From positions 1 through 27,283 of the IMG/VR virus record IMGVR_UViG_3300025949_000492: a DNA stretch of 27,283 nucleotides; one strand, given 5' to 3'. The notes below the pieces were generated by a model. It did no database searches. It saw only the letters and a list, made by a program, of their open reading frames with translations, and was not told where the DNA came from. The stretch comes from a virus. Shown piece after piece: positions 3,391-15,451 of this stretch. Position numbers and translations under genes: made by a program. The stretch's first letter is position 1, and each line of letters begins with the position of its first letter.

Positions 3391-3430
3391 TTGGGTGACT
3401 GGCCAGAGTATGGCGTAGCCGGTCACCCAA
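3391..3430. promoter_or_regulatory. Strong imperfect hairpin before a zinc-ribbon gene
   Basis: TTGGGTGAC-T-GGC (3391-3403) pairs with GCC-G-GTCACCCAA (3418-3430): nine pairs, one mismatch and three pairs, with a 14-base loop. No T-run follows on the plus strand, so it is not a clear terminator for rightward transcripts. It ends 17 bases before the ATG at 3448 and contains an in-frame TTG at its first base, which is therefore a poor start. It could shield or stabilise mRNA or bind a protein. Confidence 0.45.
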
Positions 3431-3447
3431 CCCATCTGGTGCATCAC

Positions 3448-3672
3448 ATGAAGCCCCGACAACGACAGACATGCAAATATGGCCACGCCATGACTAGGGG
3501 CAATGTCATCATTTCAAGTAAAGGGAAGCGGCGATGCCGATATTGTTACAACGAATGGTGTCGGCTGCGTTATAAGAACAATCCGGATTACCGTGAGAAA
3601 CGATTAGCACGTTATCACTTGAAGAAATCACCTGAACTCAAGATGACGGATGTAACTGTAACCGACATCTAA
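3448..3672 (+). CDS. Small zinc-ribbon protein (HNH-leader type)
   Basis: The 74-aa basic protein has C-K-Y-G-H near residues 9-13, G-N, then C-R-Y-C around residues 29-32 and an Arg/Lys/Tyr-rich C-terminal helix. This matches the Cys/His zinc leader common in phage HNH homing nucleases, without a visible catalytic HNH. The frame is open up to a TTG at 3391, but that codon lies in a hairpin arm and lacks a ribosome site. The ATG at 3448 sits just before the conserved region, though its own ribosome site (GGTG) is weak. It resembles the gene at 2632. A rho-independent terminator candidate follows four bases after the stop. Confidence 0.6.
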   Translation: MKPRQRQTCKYGHAMTRGNVIISSKGKRRCRYCYNEWCRLRYKNNPDYREKRLARYHLKKSPELKMTDVTVTDI

Positions 3673-3675
3673 AGT

Positions 3676-3704
3676 ACCCAACGTATGTGGGTGTGTTGGG
3701 TTTT
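3676..3704 (+). terminator. Terminator candidate after zinc-ribbon gene
   Basis: ACCCAAC (3676-3682) pairs perfectly with GTTGGGT (3695-3701) across a 12-base loop, followed by TTTA. The U-run is short, so efficiency is uncertain. Its place right after a stop codon and before the solute-binding-protein gene fits a terminator. Confidence 0.5.
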
Positions 3705-3740
3705 ACCATTGACACCCTTTAACTGGAGCAGCGTACCCCA

Positions 3741-4733
3741 ATGAAGAAGCTTTTATTGACCACGACTGCCTTGTTGGCCCTTACTGTGGGCGCTCAAGCG
3801 CAGAAATCCATCATGACAGGAGGTGAAAAAGGAGCGTACAACAGCACCTTTTGTCCGCCACTGCCAGCTGTCCTCGGGCAGTCAATGTTCCAAGGCTACC
3901 ACTGCACTCCGTCAGATGGCACTTTGGCGAACATTGCCGGAGTGCTTGCCCGACCAACCAACATCGGGTTTGTTCAACTTGATGTATTGGCGCGCGAGAT
4001 CGCCAACAAACCGGAACTGGCTAAGCAGGTTACTGTCATCAGGCAGGATATCGCCTGTGAGGGCCTGTGGATGGTCACCAAGAACGACAAGCTGAAGAAC
4101 TACGGTGACGTGCTTGGCTATGCCCGGCGCATTCCGTTTGTGCTACCGGCCCAAACCAGCGGCAGCGCGGCCAGCTTCAGTTTCCTGCAATCCATCGACC
4201 CTGATGGCTTGGGCCGTGCCCCGGCTCGCAACATCAAGTACGTGCAGGATTCCACCACGGTCATCAATACCGTGGCCGCCAGCACGGACAACAGCGTCGG
4301 CTTCTTTGTGCAGTTTGCCGACCCTGAGAATGCCAATATCCGGTTGATGGTGGAAAAAGGACTGACGGTTATCCCGGTGGTGAGCCGTGAGATTGCCAAT
4401 GCCAAGGTTGGTGAGAACCAGCTTTACAATGTGCAGAGCTTTGGCCTCAAGGCTGGTGGCATCTTTGTCAGCGGCGATGAGCGCGTCACCGCCTGCACCC
4501 CGGTGGCGGTTATCACTGGCAACCCTGAAGCAGCGAAGGACAACAACGCTCGTGATGATCAGAACGACCTGATCAAGGCGGTCCGTGACGTGCCTTCCTC
4601 AGCACTGCTTCCGCAGGACTCGCGGCTTGCGAACCTGCTGAAGTCGGTCAAGAAGGTTGGTGGCTCAGCACTCAATGAGATGCTGGCTGCGACTGACAAG
4701 TTCAAGAAGGCTGCTGAGTCCATGGCCAACTAA
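3741..4733 (+). CDS. Exported TAXI-type solute-binding protein
   Basis: The 330-aa product starts with a textbook signal peptide: two lysines, a hydrophobic core to about residue 18, and an A-Q-A cleavage site near residue 20. The mature protein begins with T-G-G-E-K-G-A-Y (residues 26-33), followed near residues 58-85 by T-P-S-D-G-T and N-I-G-F-V-Q-L-D-V-L-A. These mirror the T-G-G-x-x-G-x-Y and V-Q-S-D motifs of TAXI-family TRAP transporter binding proteins. The expected role is periplasmic capture of a small organic acid or amino acid. No TRAP membrane components are nearby, so any uptake would need a host transporter. It has a GGAG ribosome site and is bracketed by terminator-like hairpins. 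Paired cysteines (C38/C56, for example) suggest a disulfide-bonded exported protein. The ligand is unknown. Confidence 0.7.
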   Translation: MKKLLLTTTALLALTVGAQAQKSIMTGGEKGAYNSTFCPPLPAVLGQSMFQGYHCTPSDGTLANIAGVLARPTNIGFVQLDVLAREIANKPELAKQVTVIRQDIACEGLWMVTKNDKLKNYGDVLGYARRIPFVLPAQTSGSAASFSFLQSIDPDGLGRAPARNIKYVQDSTTVINTVAASTDNSVGFFVQFADPENANIRLMVEKGLTVIPVVSREIANAKVGENQLYNVQSFGLKAGGIFVSGDERVTACTPVAVITGNPEAAKDNNARDDQNDLIKAVRDVPSSALLPQDSRLANLLKSVKKVGGSALNEMLAATDKFKKAAESMAN

Positions 4734-4735
4734 CC

Positions 4736-4816
4736 CTTGCGAGGGCTCATAACCCAACCGCAAGATAGGACGTGAGACCAGTTTATTCTAGATCGGCGCT
4801 GGTTCTCACGTCCGCC
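4736..4816 (+). terminator. Tandem hairpins, likely terminator
   Basis: Two hairpins follow the solute-binding-protein gene. The first pairs CTTGCG (4736-4741) with CGCAAG (4759-4764), with an inner GGG/CCC. The second is long: ACGTGAGA-CCAG (4770-4781) pairs with CTGG-TTCTCACGT (4799-4811) with one bulged base and a 17-base loop. CCGCCCCTTTT follows. The second has terminator shape, although the T-run is displaced by seven bases. Confidence 0.5.
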
Positions 4817-4834
4817 CCTTTTCTGGAGGTTTTC

Positions 4835-5086
4835 ATGGAATTAACTGGTTTTGTGGTAGTATGCACCATTGTTATGGCTCCAGCATGGTCGCAGTACCAA
4901 ACCACATTGGTGATGACAAGAAGTCAGGGAGCATGTCACAAATATTCGAATGATCACAATGGCCGTGGCATGGTAGCTTATTCGCGCCCTCTTGAGTTAC
5001 CAAGAGATGTCCGAAAATTCACTGAATTGTGTGGCCCTAAGGGCGCTGATTGTATCAACGCCATCCCGGCAGGAGATGACAAATGA
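4835..5086 (+). CDS. Small exported or membrane-anchored protein
   Basis: The ATG at 4835 has a strong GGAGG ribosome site and gives 83 aa. The frame stays open up to a GTG at 4772, but that start lies in the terminator hairpin and is unlikely. Residues 1-20 are hydrophobic, with a possible cleavage near W-S-Q; the rest is polar, with three cysteines (near residues 34, 66 and 72). I do not recognise the family. It overlaps the next membrane-protein gene by ATGA, implying translational coupling and perhaps a shared envelope role. Confidence 0.6.
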   Translation: MELTGFVVVCTIVMAPAWSQYQTTLVMTRSQGACHKYSNDHNGRGMVAYSRPLELPRDVRKFTELCGPKGADCINAIPAGDDK

Positions 5087-5502
5087 ATCGTTTGGCTAAT
5101 ATTCCCATCAAGGTTTGGTATCTGTTCTCGGTAGTGTACTGCTACATGCTTTGGAACCCGTATTACTCCTTGTGGTCATTTGTGCAGGGCGCGGCGGACC
5201 CAGCCCTCAAGGCCATTGCAATTATCTTGGCCGTCATCATTGCCGCCCTCTACCTCATTGAGGGGCACCGCAGCATGAACGTGGTCGGCATTGTGCTGTT
5301 CCTGAGCCTCACAGGCGCTGTCATGTGGCTGGCGTTCAATCACGGGGCCCGCTTCAACTATGCTGAGCTCTGGGGCCAGTGGGTTGTAGGGGCTTTCATG
5401 ACGCTTGCCCTGCAAGGTGGCCGTATCTACAGGTCCATGACAGGCCGCGTGCCGGTCACCGGAACCGTGGAACACGACACAGCTGGGCACCACCATGGCT
5501 AG
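5083..5502 (+). CDS. DUF6524-like four-helix membrane protein
   Basis: The 139-aa protein shows four hydrophobic segments, near residues 10-30, 42-60, 66-86 and 98-116. The first carries W-N-P-Y-Y-S-L-W-S-F, close to the N-P-x-x-Y-S motif I associate with DUF6524 inner-membrane proteins of proteobacteria. The tail is cytosolic or periplasmic and histidine-rich (H-H-H-G). The function of that family is not known to me. It overlaps its neighbours on both sides (ATGA upstream, 8 bases downstream), so it belongs to the same operon. Phage copies could be captured host genes. Confidence 0.6.
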   Translation: MNRLANIPIKVWYLFSVVYCYMLWNPYYSLWSFVQGAADPALKAIAIILAVIIAALYLIEGHRSMNVVGIVLFLSLTGAVMWLAFNHGARFNYAELWGQWVVGAFMTLALQGGRIYRSMTGRVPVTGTVEHDTAGHHHG

Positions 5503-14136: not shown

Positions 14137-14267
14137 TGGCAGAAGTGATTTTTGGGGTAGTTCTATCCGGTGTGGTCCTGCTTCTTGTTGGCCACTCCTT
14201 CATAGACACTATCTTCAAGAGGCAGGAGGAGATTATTAACCGCATGACGACGAAAGGTGACCTGTAA
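14136..14267 (+). CDS. 43-aa membrane protein
   Basis: The ATG shares a base with the previous TGA, and the TAA shares a base with the next ATG, so this fills the joint exactly. The product has one transmembrane helix at about residues 4-20 (I-F-G-V-V-L-S-G-V-V-L-L-L-V-G), then a polar amphipathic tail rich in Glu/Lys/Arg. No family is recognised. The double overlap is the main support for a real gene. Confidence 0.6.
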   Translation: MAEVIFGVVLSGVVLLLVGHSFIDTIFKRQEEIINRMTTKGDL

Positions 14268-15451
14268 TGGCTAAAGAACAGCGTAGCTTCCGCTACGAAA
14301 AGCGCAGCAAGGATTCGCTCAAAGAGCGGGCCAATATGAAGGGTGGAAATTTCGACACCTACATCAAGCCCAAGTTCAAGCAGTGGAAGCCAAAGGACGG
14401 GAAAAACCTGATCCGCATCCTGCCACCCACGTGGAAAAAGGCTGACGCGCCTTGGCAGAGCACGGCCCATTACGGTTTGGACATTTACGTCAACTTCAAT
14501 ATTGGCGCGGACAACCAATCGTACCTCTCACTGAGCAAGATGCAACAAGGGGATGACCCGCTTGCCGAAGCCCGGCGTGAAGCCCAAAAGGAAGGTGACA
14601 AGGACCTCGCCAAGGCGCTCAACCCGTCACAGCGAATCCTTTACTGGATCATCGACCGGCTGGATGAGGATGAAGGCCCCCTCCTCTGGGCTGCGCCTTT
14701 CACATTTGACAAGTCATTGTCAAATCTTTGCATTGACGAGGATACTAAGGAGGTGATGTTCATTGACGACCCTGAAGAGGGTTGTGATGTCCGCTTCTAC
14801 AAGGAGGGCACCGGGCTCACCACCAAGTATGACCCGTCTAAGATGAAGGTGTTGAAGGAAAGCCCCATTCATGAGGATGAGGAAATTCAGGCTGACTGGC
14901 TTGATTTCATCACTGACAACCCGCTGCCGGAAACCCTCAACTTCTACAGCTACGATCACATCAACGGCACCTTCAACGGTCAGGCTGGCCGCAAAGAGGA
15001 CGATGATGATGAAAAGCCGGTGCGCAGCCGCCGTGCCAAAGAACCTGATGATGACGAGGACGAAAAGCCGGCTCGCAGCAAGCGGCGCGCTGACCCTGAA
15101 GATGAACCTGAGGAGAAGCCTGCACGGTCACGTCGTAAGGCTGAGCCTGAGGATGAACCTGAGGAAAAACCGGCCCGCAGCCGCCGCAGGGCAGACCCTG
15201 AAGATGAACCTGATGACGAGCCGGATGAAAAGCCAGCCCGTTCACGGCGCAGGGCTGAGCCTGAGGATGATGAACCTGAGGAGAAGCCTGCACGTGGCAA
15301 ACGCCGCGCTGAACCTGAGGACGATGAGGCTGACGAGCCCCCTCCGAAAAGCCGCCGTGGGAAGAGTGAATCTGAGGACGAGGAAGGTGGTGGCAGCCTC
15401 CGTGAGAAACTAGCTGCGAGGCGTCGCAGTCGTAACTCAGACGACGATTGA
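14267..15451 (+). CDS. ssDNA-binding protein, gp32-like, with charged repeat tail
   Basis: This 394-aa protein has a folded N-terminal part (about residues 1-245) that fits a T4 gp32-like single-strand DNA-binding core: basic leader, K-P-K-F-K-Q-W-K-P-K-D-G-K-N-L-I-R-I-L-P (34-53), aromatic residues and an I-L-Y-W-I-I-D-R segment. The gp32 zinc cysteines are absent. The C-terminal third is built of about seven repeats alternating E-K-P-A-R-S-R-R-R-A with P-E-D-E-P-E. SSB tails are usually simply acidic and bind partner proteins, so the regular alternation of Arg and Asp/Glu is unusual. Neighbouring recombination genes support the role. Confidence 0.75.
   Translation: MAKEQRSFRYEKRSKDSLKERANMKGGNFDTYIKPKFKQWKPKDGKNLIRILPPTWKKADAPWQSTAHYGLDIYVNFNIGADNQSYLSLSKMQQGDDPLAEARREAQKEGDKDLAKALNPSQRILYWIIDRLDEDEGPLLWAAPFTFDKSLSNLCIDEDTKEVMFIDDPEEGCDVRFYKEGTGLTTKYDPSKMKVLKESPIHEDEEIQADWLDFITDNPLPETLNFYSYDHINGTFNGQAGRKEDDDDEKPVRSRRAKEPDDDEDEKPARSKRRADPEDEPEEKPARSRRKAEPEDEPEEKPARSRRRADPEDEPDDEPDEKPARSRRRAEPEDDEPEEKPARGKRRAEPEDDEADEPPPKSRRGKSESEDEEGGGSLREKLAARRRSRNSDDD
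15011..15380 (+). repeat. Seven tandem in-frame coding repeats
   Basis: Repeat units begin with the E-K-P (or E-P-P) codons at 15011, 15062, 15113, 15164, 15227, 15281 and 15335. The spacings are 51, 51, 51, 63, 54 and 54 bases, all multiples of three. Units encode a basic S-R-R-R-A block followed by an acidic P-E-D-E-P-E block; the last is degenerate. The length differences suggest growth by unequal recombination or slippage. Confidence 0.85.

Follow-up and report, generated by a model that had tools for sequence, protein, structure and literature searches.

What would a phage do with an exported solute-binding protein of the TAXI type that comes without TRAP permease genes, and does the gene encoding it act alone or with a partner? 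This question is raised by a phage fragment of 27283 bases from a virus record, hereafter the window, which encodes a DNA polymerase, a clamp loader, a UvsX-like recombinase, a DNA methyltransferase and an endolysin along with a secreted TAXI-type solute-binding protein of 330 aa (3741-4733; all features described here between 3676 and 5502 are on the + strand). In a preliminary description made from the sequence, the gene was regarded as out of place and as a moron acquired in a terminator-bounded cassette. The analysis reported here leads us to another reading, to which we give a probability of about 0.55, namely that the TAXI gene and a DUF6524 gene downstream of it form a two-gene phage envelope module.

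The phage protein is predicted to be exported and to adopt the TAXI fold

The ORF at 3741-4733 is real and carries the TAXI motifs noted earlier; as read from the sequence, its product would open with a Sec-type signal peptide of about residues 1-20 (3741-3800), MKKLLLTTTALLALTVGAQA, with cleavage before Q. The protein matches the phage family phrog_6856 (E 3.9e-14), to which no function is assigned there, and searches of Pfam and NCBIfam gave no match above noise. Comparison of the gene among the close relatives L003, L004 and L005 yielded a dN/dS of 0.035-0.055, and the TAXI gene is under purifying selection. Directly 5′ of it, at 3391-3672, lies a gene for a 93-aa protein with a short-stretch match to HNH endonuclease families (7e-9).

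A first AlphaFold model, built from 8 sequences, was poor (pLDDT 62), and six TAXI structures were already top-ranked with it. The model built from 14 sequences reached a pLDDT of 83 and a pTM of 0.82; TAXI structures ranked first in the Foldseek search made with it, and VIA-align gave Z scores of 19.1, 18.3, 18.1, 18.0, 17.1 and 16.9 for the six TAXI chains, the next fold scoring 13.8. Structure prediction against TAXI proteins had been named in the preliminary description as a check on its motif-based call, and its outcome (TAXI structures top, Z 16.9-19.1) bears the call out. On the evidence of the model, the window protein has the TAXI fold, that of a two-lobed periplasmic binding protein. 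At the curated cut-off of PF16868 (NMT1_3) the window protein has no match; its relative L009 scores 16.9 bits, below the cut-off of 27, and more distant homologues from enteric phages pass it with 44-46 bits. We thus call the protein TAXI-type by its fold and its pocket, and not as a member of PF16868.

The backbone-recognition half of the ligand pocket is conserved

In VcGluP, the ligand is bound through its amino group by Y45, Q93 and E125 and through its alpha-carboxylate by S75 and G156 (PMC11574862). The equivalent residues of the window protein were located with two alignments. The first comprised the window protein, five close viral or bacterial members of its family, a distant homologue from a bacterium, and TAXI proteins of phages (three, annotated as such) and of bacteria (three); nine of its columns are invariant, and in the window protein these include Y33, Q79, E107, S140 and G141. 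The second, with VcGluP and the proteins of Vibrio, rhizobial and EBPR phages, paired Y45 with Y33 (3837-3839), S75 with T61 (3921-3923; a conservative change), Q93 with Q79 (3975-3977), E125 with E107 (4059-4061) and G156 with G141, the latter forming with S140 the start of an SG(S/T) motif (4158-4163). In all the phage TAXI proteins compared, from Vibrio to Rhizobium phages, these five positions are identical or S/T. The lobe-2 residues equivalent to VcGluP Y200 and M201 vary among the same proteins; in the window protein they correspond to Q191 and F192 (4311-4316), which are changed in its family.

Judged from these alignments, the half of the pocket that recognises the ligand backbone appears to be kept and the lobe-2 residues to be changed, and we predict that the window protein binds an amino-acid-like ligand. 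The identification as TAXI, made at first from motifs, is upheld by the fold and by these residues together. Compared with the bacterial TAXI-TRAP proteins (VcGluP/VC0430 and TtGluBP; PF16868 NMT1_3), the window protein has the same fold, signal peptide and backbone-recognition residues at an identity of 17-19% to three bacterial TAXI proteins, and differs from them by the missing PF16868 match, the altered lobe-2 side of the pocket, conserved cysteines of its own and the lack of a TRAP permease nearby.

The TAXI gene is followed by a DUF6524 gene in all viral contigs

Viral homologues of the window TAXI gene were found in nine contigs, one of which (L002) is the same virus as the window and is referred to as its twin. 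In 10/10 viral contigs, the window included, the next gene downstream encodes a DUF6524 protein, save that in the window and its twin it is set off from the TAXI gene by two hairpins and one small ORF; the ten contigs represent about 8 lineages, whose remaining gene content is mostly different. The window copy (5083-5502) encodes a membrane protein of 139 aa with about 4 hydrophobic segments and matches PF20134 with an E value of 1.4e-8 and 35.0 bits, over the curated cut-off of 27, and the PF20134 search matches all ten viral records that carry the TAXI gene. When the viral collection was searched from DUF6524 with two different seeds, only the same TAXI-carrying contigs were returned. The view of the TAXI gene as out of place is not supported by these results, its relatives in otherwise different phages always having DUF6524 downstream.

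The spacing of the two genes varies. They overlap by 4 bp in L003-L006 and by 1 bp in L007 and L008; the distance between them is 12 bp for L009 and 51 bp for L010, and it reaches 349 bp in the window. The start/stop overlap in six contigs suggests translational coupling. DUF6524 shows a dN/dS of 0.09-0.15 in the comparison of L003, L004 and L005 and is under purifying selection; we found no papers on this family in the literature.

The ORF between the two genes in the window (4835-5086, 83 codons) is preceded by GGAGG, overlaps the DUF6524 start (ATGA) and probably encodes a secreted protein, whose predicted mature part has three cysteines; relatives of it were seen in no other locus compared. 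An ORF resembling S-adenosylmethionine decarboxylase (speD) by eye lies at 5001-5360 of L007, another of the contigs with the TAXI-DUF6524 pair.

The hairpins and the composition of the gene argue against a recent cassette

The preliminary description had the TAXI gene flanked by hairpins on both sides, of which the downstream pair proved real and the upstream one did not rise above chance level. The upstream hairpin (3676-3702) is weak, its -12 kcal/mol corresponding to z -1.1, with 30/200 shuffles as good; it figures among 22 terminator-like sites in a scan of 14 kb, for which shuffles give 14.6 +/- 3.6, and is not clearly beyond chance. Downstream, a short hairpin past the TAXI stop codon (4736-4764) precedes a strong one (4768-4813; z -4.3, 0/200 shuffles as good), and in the fold of 4730-4832 both jointly reach z -4.8. 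The tail that follows the second hairpin, GCCCCTTTT, is moderately terminator-like, and the site is absent from the list of the simple terminator scan; the strong hairpin may be either a transcript end or an mRNA-stabilising element between TAXI and DUF6524. In L010 the corresponding position between TAXI and DUF6524 is occupied by a different hairpin, of 13 bp and of like strength (z -4.3).

In transport operons, malE-malF among them, hairpins located after a binding-protein gene and before that of its membrane partner are known to raise the mRNA of the binding protein over that of the partner. Because of this precedent, the hairpin layout fits a binding protein and its partner as well as it fits the border of a cassette. 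Moreover, the TAXI and DUF6524 genes overlap in six relatives, and therefore no terminator can separate them there.

The relatives of the gene bear on its history as well. Six close bacterial homologues were found, in the Roseomonas group and in further Acetobacteraceae, with relatives at 50-58% identity, and the gene is rare in related bacteria, being found in 4/200 genomes sampled from the family and 4/397 from the order. The TAXI profile also recovers ordinary bacterial TAXI proteins, via its N-terminal part, and a plasmid search returned no homologue of either TAXI or DUF6524. Six viral TAXI copies cluster separately from the six bacterial copies in the tree, the branches of the window and L009 being unplaced. 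The GC3 of the TAXI gene ranges from 0.28 (L003) to 0.69 (window) and tracks the composition of each carrier phage, which points to a long residence and not to a recent moron.

That a single TAXI gene was recently acquired as a terminator-bounded moron is therefore a reading that we hold to be very improbable. The strong hairpin 3′ of the gene and a GC3 above the window mean (0.69 vs 0.58) would speak for it; set against these are the chance-level hairpin upstream, the GC3 that follows each phage genome, the grouping of six of the other viral copies apart from the bacterial clade and, above all, the partner gene, which lies beyond the downstream hairpins and would thus fall outside the supposed unit, so that the pairing already largely refutes the proposal. 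Neither a terminator of its own on both sides nor a foreign composition, by which a moron is recognised, was found for the TAXI gene.

TAXI genes of other phages adjoin small membrane-protein genes

TAXI genes have been annotated before in the jumbo phages Klebsiella FBKp24 and Erwinia (Wellington and relatives), in Pseudaeromonas KLEP7, in EBPR siphovirus 2 and in an E. coli prophage (WP_170826749.1), and a TRAP solute-receptor-like protein was reported in the Ralstonia jumbo phages RP12/RP31 (PMC5468394). Such genes have so far been annotated singly, as stray transport genes, and nothing was found in the literature on phage TAXI function beyond annotation; the new point is their pairing with a membrane-protein gene. 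A direct search of the phage database with the window protein returned nothing reliable, and the link to the annotated proteins was reached through relatives as stepping stones. As far as sequence matches can tell, TAXI-like genes are widespread in phages: with a Bradyrhizobium phage protein as query, 339 INPHARED phage records were matched, 290 of them from Vibrio, and in L151, the one Vibrio example checked, the pocket residues are present and a TM protein is encoded downstream.

In the enteric-type loci, the TAXI gene is directly adjoined by a small hydrophobic ORF of the same orientation in 54/55 cases, vs 36/246 for control genes of those loci; the 55 loci are mostly close relatives, and the 54 should be counted as a few independent occurrences. 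A relative of the 2-TM protein of FBKp24 could be detected in most of these loci. An ORF for a hydrophobic protein of 37-57 aa likewise adjoins the TAXI gene in Agrobacterium Atu_ph08, Rhizobium RHph_I1_18, Sinorhizobium PBC5, Bradyrhizobium BDU-MI-1 and EBPR siphovirus 2, and in Vibrio phage 1.121.O a 115-aa TM protein is encoded downstream. Leaving out RP12/RP31, the annotated phage TAXI proteins share the pocket residues of the window protein and, as far as checked and with the exception of KLEP7, have a small membrane gene alongside; they differ from it in sequence (23-28% identity where aligned) and in the partner, which is of about 37-57 aa and not DUF6524. Beside the enteric-type TAXI genes no DUF6524 was found, save that the small TM ORF matched it marginally in three cases (0.004-0.006). 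The occurrence of such pairs in many unrelated phages suggests a common phage way to act on the envelope.

Small membrane proteins encoded beside an exported protein are a usual layout of exclusion genes, and in the enteric prophages the TAXI gene and its small membrane gene sit just before the holin and endolysin genes, where accessory genes are common. The pair could hence be a module for superinfection exclusion, for modifying the envelope or for timing lysis, which keeps the DNA of other phages from entering or sets the time of lysis, with the ligand as a cue or the pocket as a structural feature. We regard this as unlikely: the five ligand-recognition positions are kept across very diverged phages, which argues that small-molecule binding matters, neither the TAXI-type nor the DUF6524 protein matched a PADLOC defence model, and the pair in the window is not beside lysis genes.

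Permeases and other membrane partners

No DctM gene (PF06808) was found on the window or the 9 related viral contigs, all of which are fragments, and the earlier observation of a TAXI protein without TRAP permease genes holds to that extent. Searches for GltS (PF03616) found none on any viral contig or in any related bacterial genome. The preliminary description had also suggested looking in host genomes for close homologues beside TRAP genes; the best neighbourhoods in bacteria (metG, holB, tmk etc., by ORF reading) contain no transport operon. A kinship of DUF6524 with the TRAP small subunit DctQ was considered and rejected, the hhalign probability being 0.1%, vs 98.5% between viral and bacterial DUF6524.

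A phage TAXI protein could also work without DUF6524, replacing or boosting the binding protein of the host and feeding a host permease of the TAXI-TRAP or a GltS-like type, while DUF6524 has another job. Cyanophage PstS is thought to act likewise for phosphate; it resembles the window protein as a phage-encoded periplasmic binding protein, but belongs to another binding-protein family and takes phosphate, not an amino acid, and is not known to be accompanied by DUF6524. Such a stand-alone uptake gene would be in keeping with the apparently conserved amino-acid pocket, a permease may be at hand, as the six close bacterial relatives carry 8-24 DctM genes per genome, and TAXI proteins are able to work with carriers other than TRAP (PMC12344293). 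Nevertheless, related bacterial genomes have no GltS, and this reading would explain neither why the TAXI gene is strictly paired with DUF6524 nor why small membrane partners recur in other phages; we give it a low probability.

The non-TRAP carrier in question is that of the Bordetella pertussis TAXI-GltS system (BP0403; PMC12344293), which serves as the precedent for TAXI proteins whose membrane partner lies outside the TRAP family. As in the phages, a TAXI protein is coupled there to a non-TRAP membrane gene; in contrast to the 4-TM DUF6524, the partner is a full Na+/glutamate symporter, and BP0403 itself is dimeric and contains additional domains.

DUF6524 in bacteria

DUF6524 occurs in 13/200 sampled Acetobacteraceae genomes (about 6%; 11 over the cut-off) and in 0/14 control genomes. 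The close bacterial TAXI homologues are not beside it. In nine loci from eight genomes, DUF6524 clusters with a different protein of periplasmic-binding fold, PBP_like_2 (PF12849), and it is also found elsewhere, as tandem copies and without a binding-fold neighbour. The proximity of DUF6524 to a binding-fold protein in both phage and bacterial settings is suggestive of a contact between such proteins, not a proof of it.

The Acetobacteraceae cluster (L060-L063, L076-L079, L082) consists of a secreted PBP_like_2 protein, two hypothetical proteins, a bestrophin-like protein, a further hypothetical protein and DUF6524, with a glycine-zipper protein in several. At L074:9203-13721, DUF6524 is clustered with an MlaA lipoprotein (PF04333, 1.8e-28) and with a secreted SBP-like protein of divergent sequence, and in L062 a further MlaA gene is found close to a DUF6524 cluster. 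The SBP-like gene of the MlaA-DUF6524 operon (genome G098, L074 12104-13111) was considered as a candidate for a bacterial TAXI-DUF6524 operon; its match is weak (tblastn 5.6e-4; hhalign probability 30%) and it was not counted.

A proposed two-gene envelope module

In the module that we favour, the first gene would provide a Sec-exported TAXI-type protein. In the host periplasm this protein would bind a small ligand resembling an amino acid and would close on it. DUF6524, as a 4-TM inner-membrane protein, would be its dedicated partner, to which the closure would be passed by docking, gating or signalling, and from which a signal might go onward to a host permease. The computational results that carry this proposal are the secretion signal, the fold, with TAXI structures first by both Foldseek and VIA-align, the conserved pocket, the low dN/dS of both genes and the 10/10 linkage to DUF6524; the small membrane genes that adjoin TAXI in other phage lineages, the bacterial clusters of DUF6524 with a binding-fold protein and the TAXI-GltS precedent point in the same direction. 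The kind of ligand, a physical contact between TAXI and DUF6524 and the benefit to the phage are parts of the proposal that we infer.

Several findings weigh against the module. The two genes of the window are 349 bp apart, with strong hairpins and another ORF between them; the partners in other phages, often of only 37-57 aa, are too small for transporters and appear to belong to unrelated families; DUF6524 has no detectable DctQ kinship; the close bacterial TAXI homologues are not beside DUF6524; and the enteric loci are not independent.

As to the benefit, the chances are about even that the pair would serve the infected cell in the uptake or sensing of an amino acid, which might go by way of the partner or of a host carrier. 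A change of the envelope against other phages, or of the timing of lysis, seems somewhat less probable, and a benefit of some other kind would surprise us more. We put forward only tentatively, and with more doubt than the module itself, that phages of many Gram-negative hosts share a so far unrecognised class of such envelope modules, made of an exported, TAXI-derived amino-acid receptor and, as an exchangeable partner, a small protein of the inner membrane (DUF6524 in the window, peptides of 1-2 TM in other phages); the receptor would read or gate periplasmic amino acids for the phage without a TRAP permease.

The recurrence of the same five ligand-recognition positions together with a membrane-protein gene across very different phages provides a testable claim on an unstudied phage function. 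DUF6524 gains a candidate partner, and a case is added to the emerging theme that the membrane partners of TAXI proteins need not be TRAP permeases.

Elsewhere in the window, at 14267-15451, a protein is encoded whose C-terminal part is a long run of near-repeats (DDEPEEKPARSRR); from its position and its ending, it is perhaps a single-strand DNA-binding protein.
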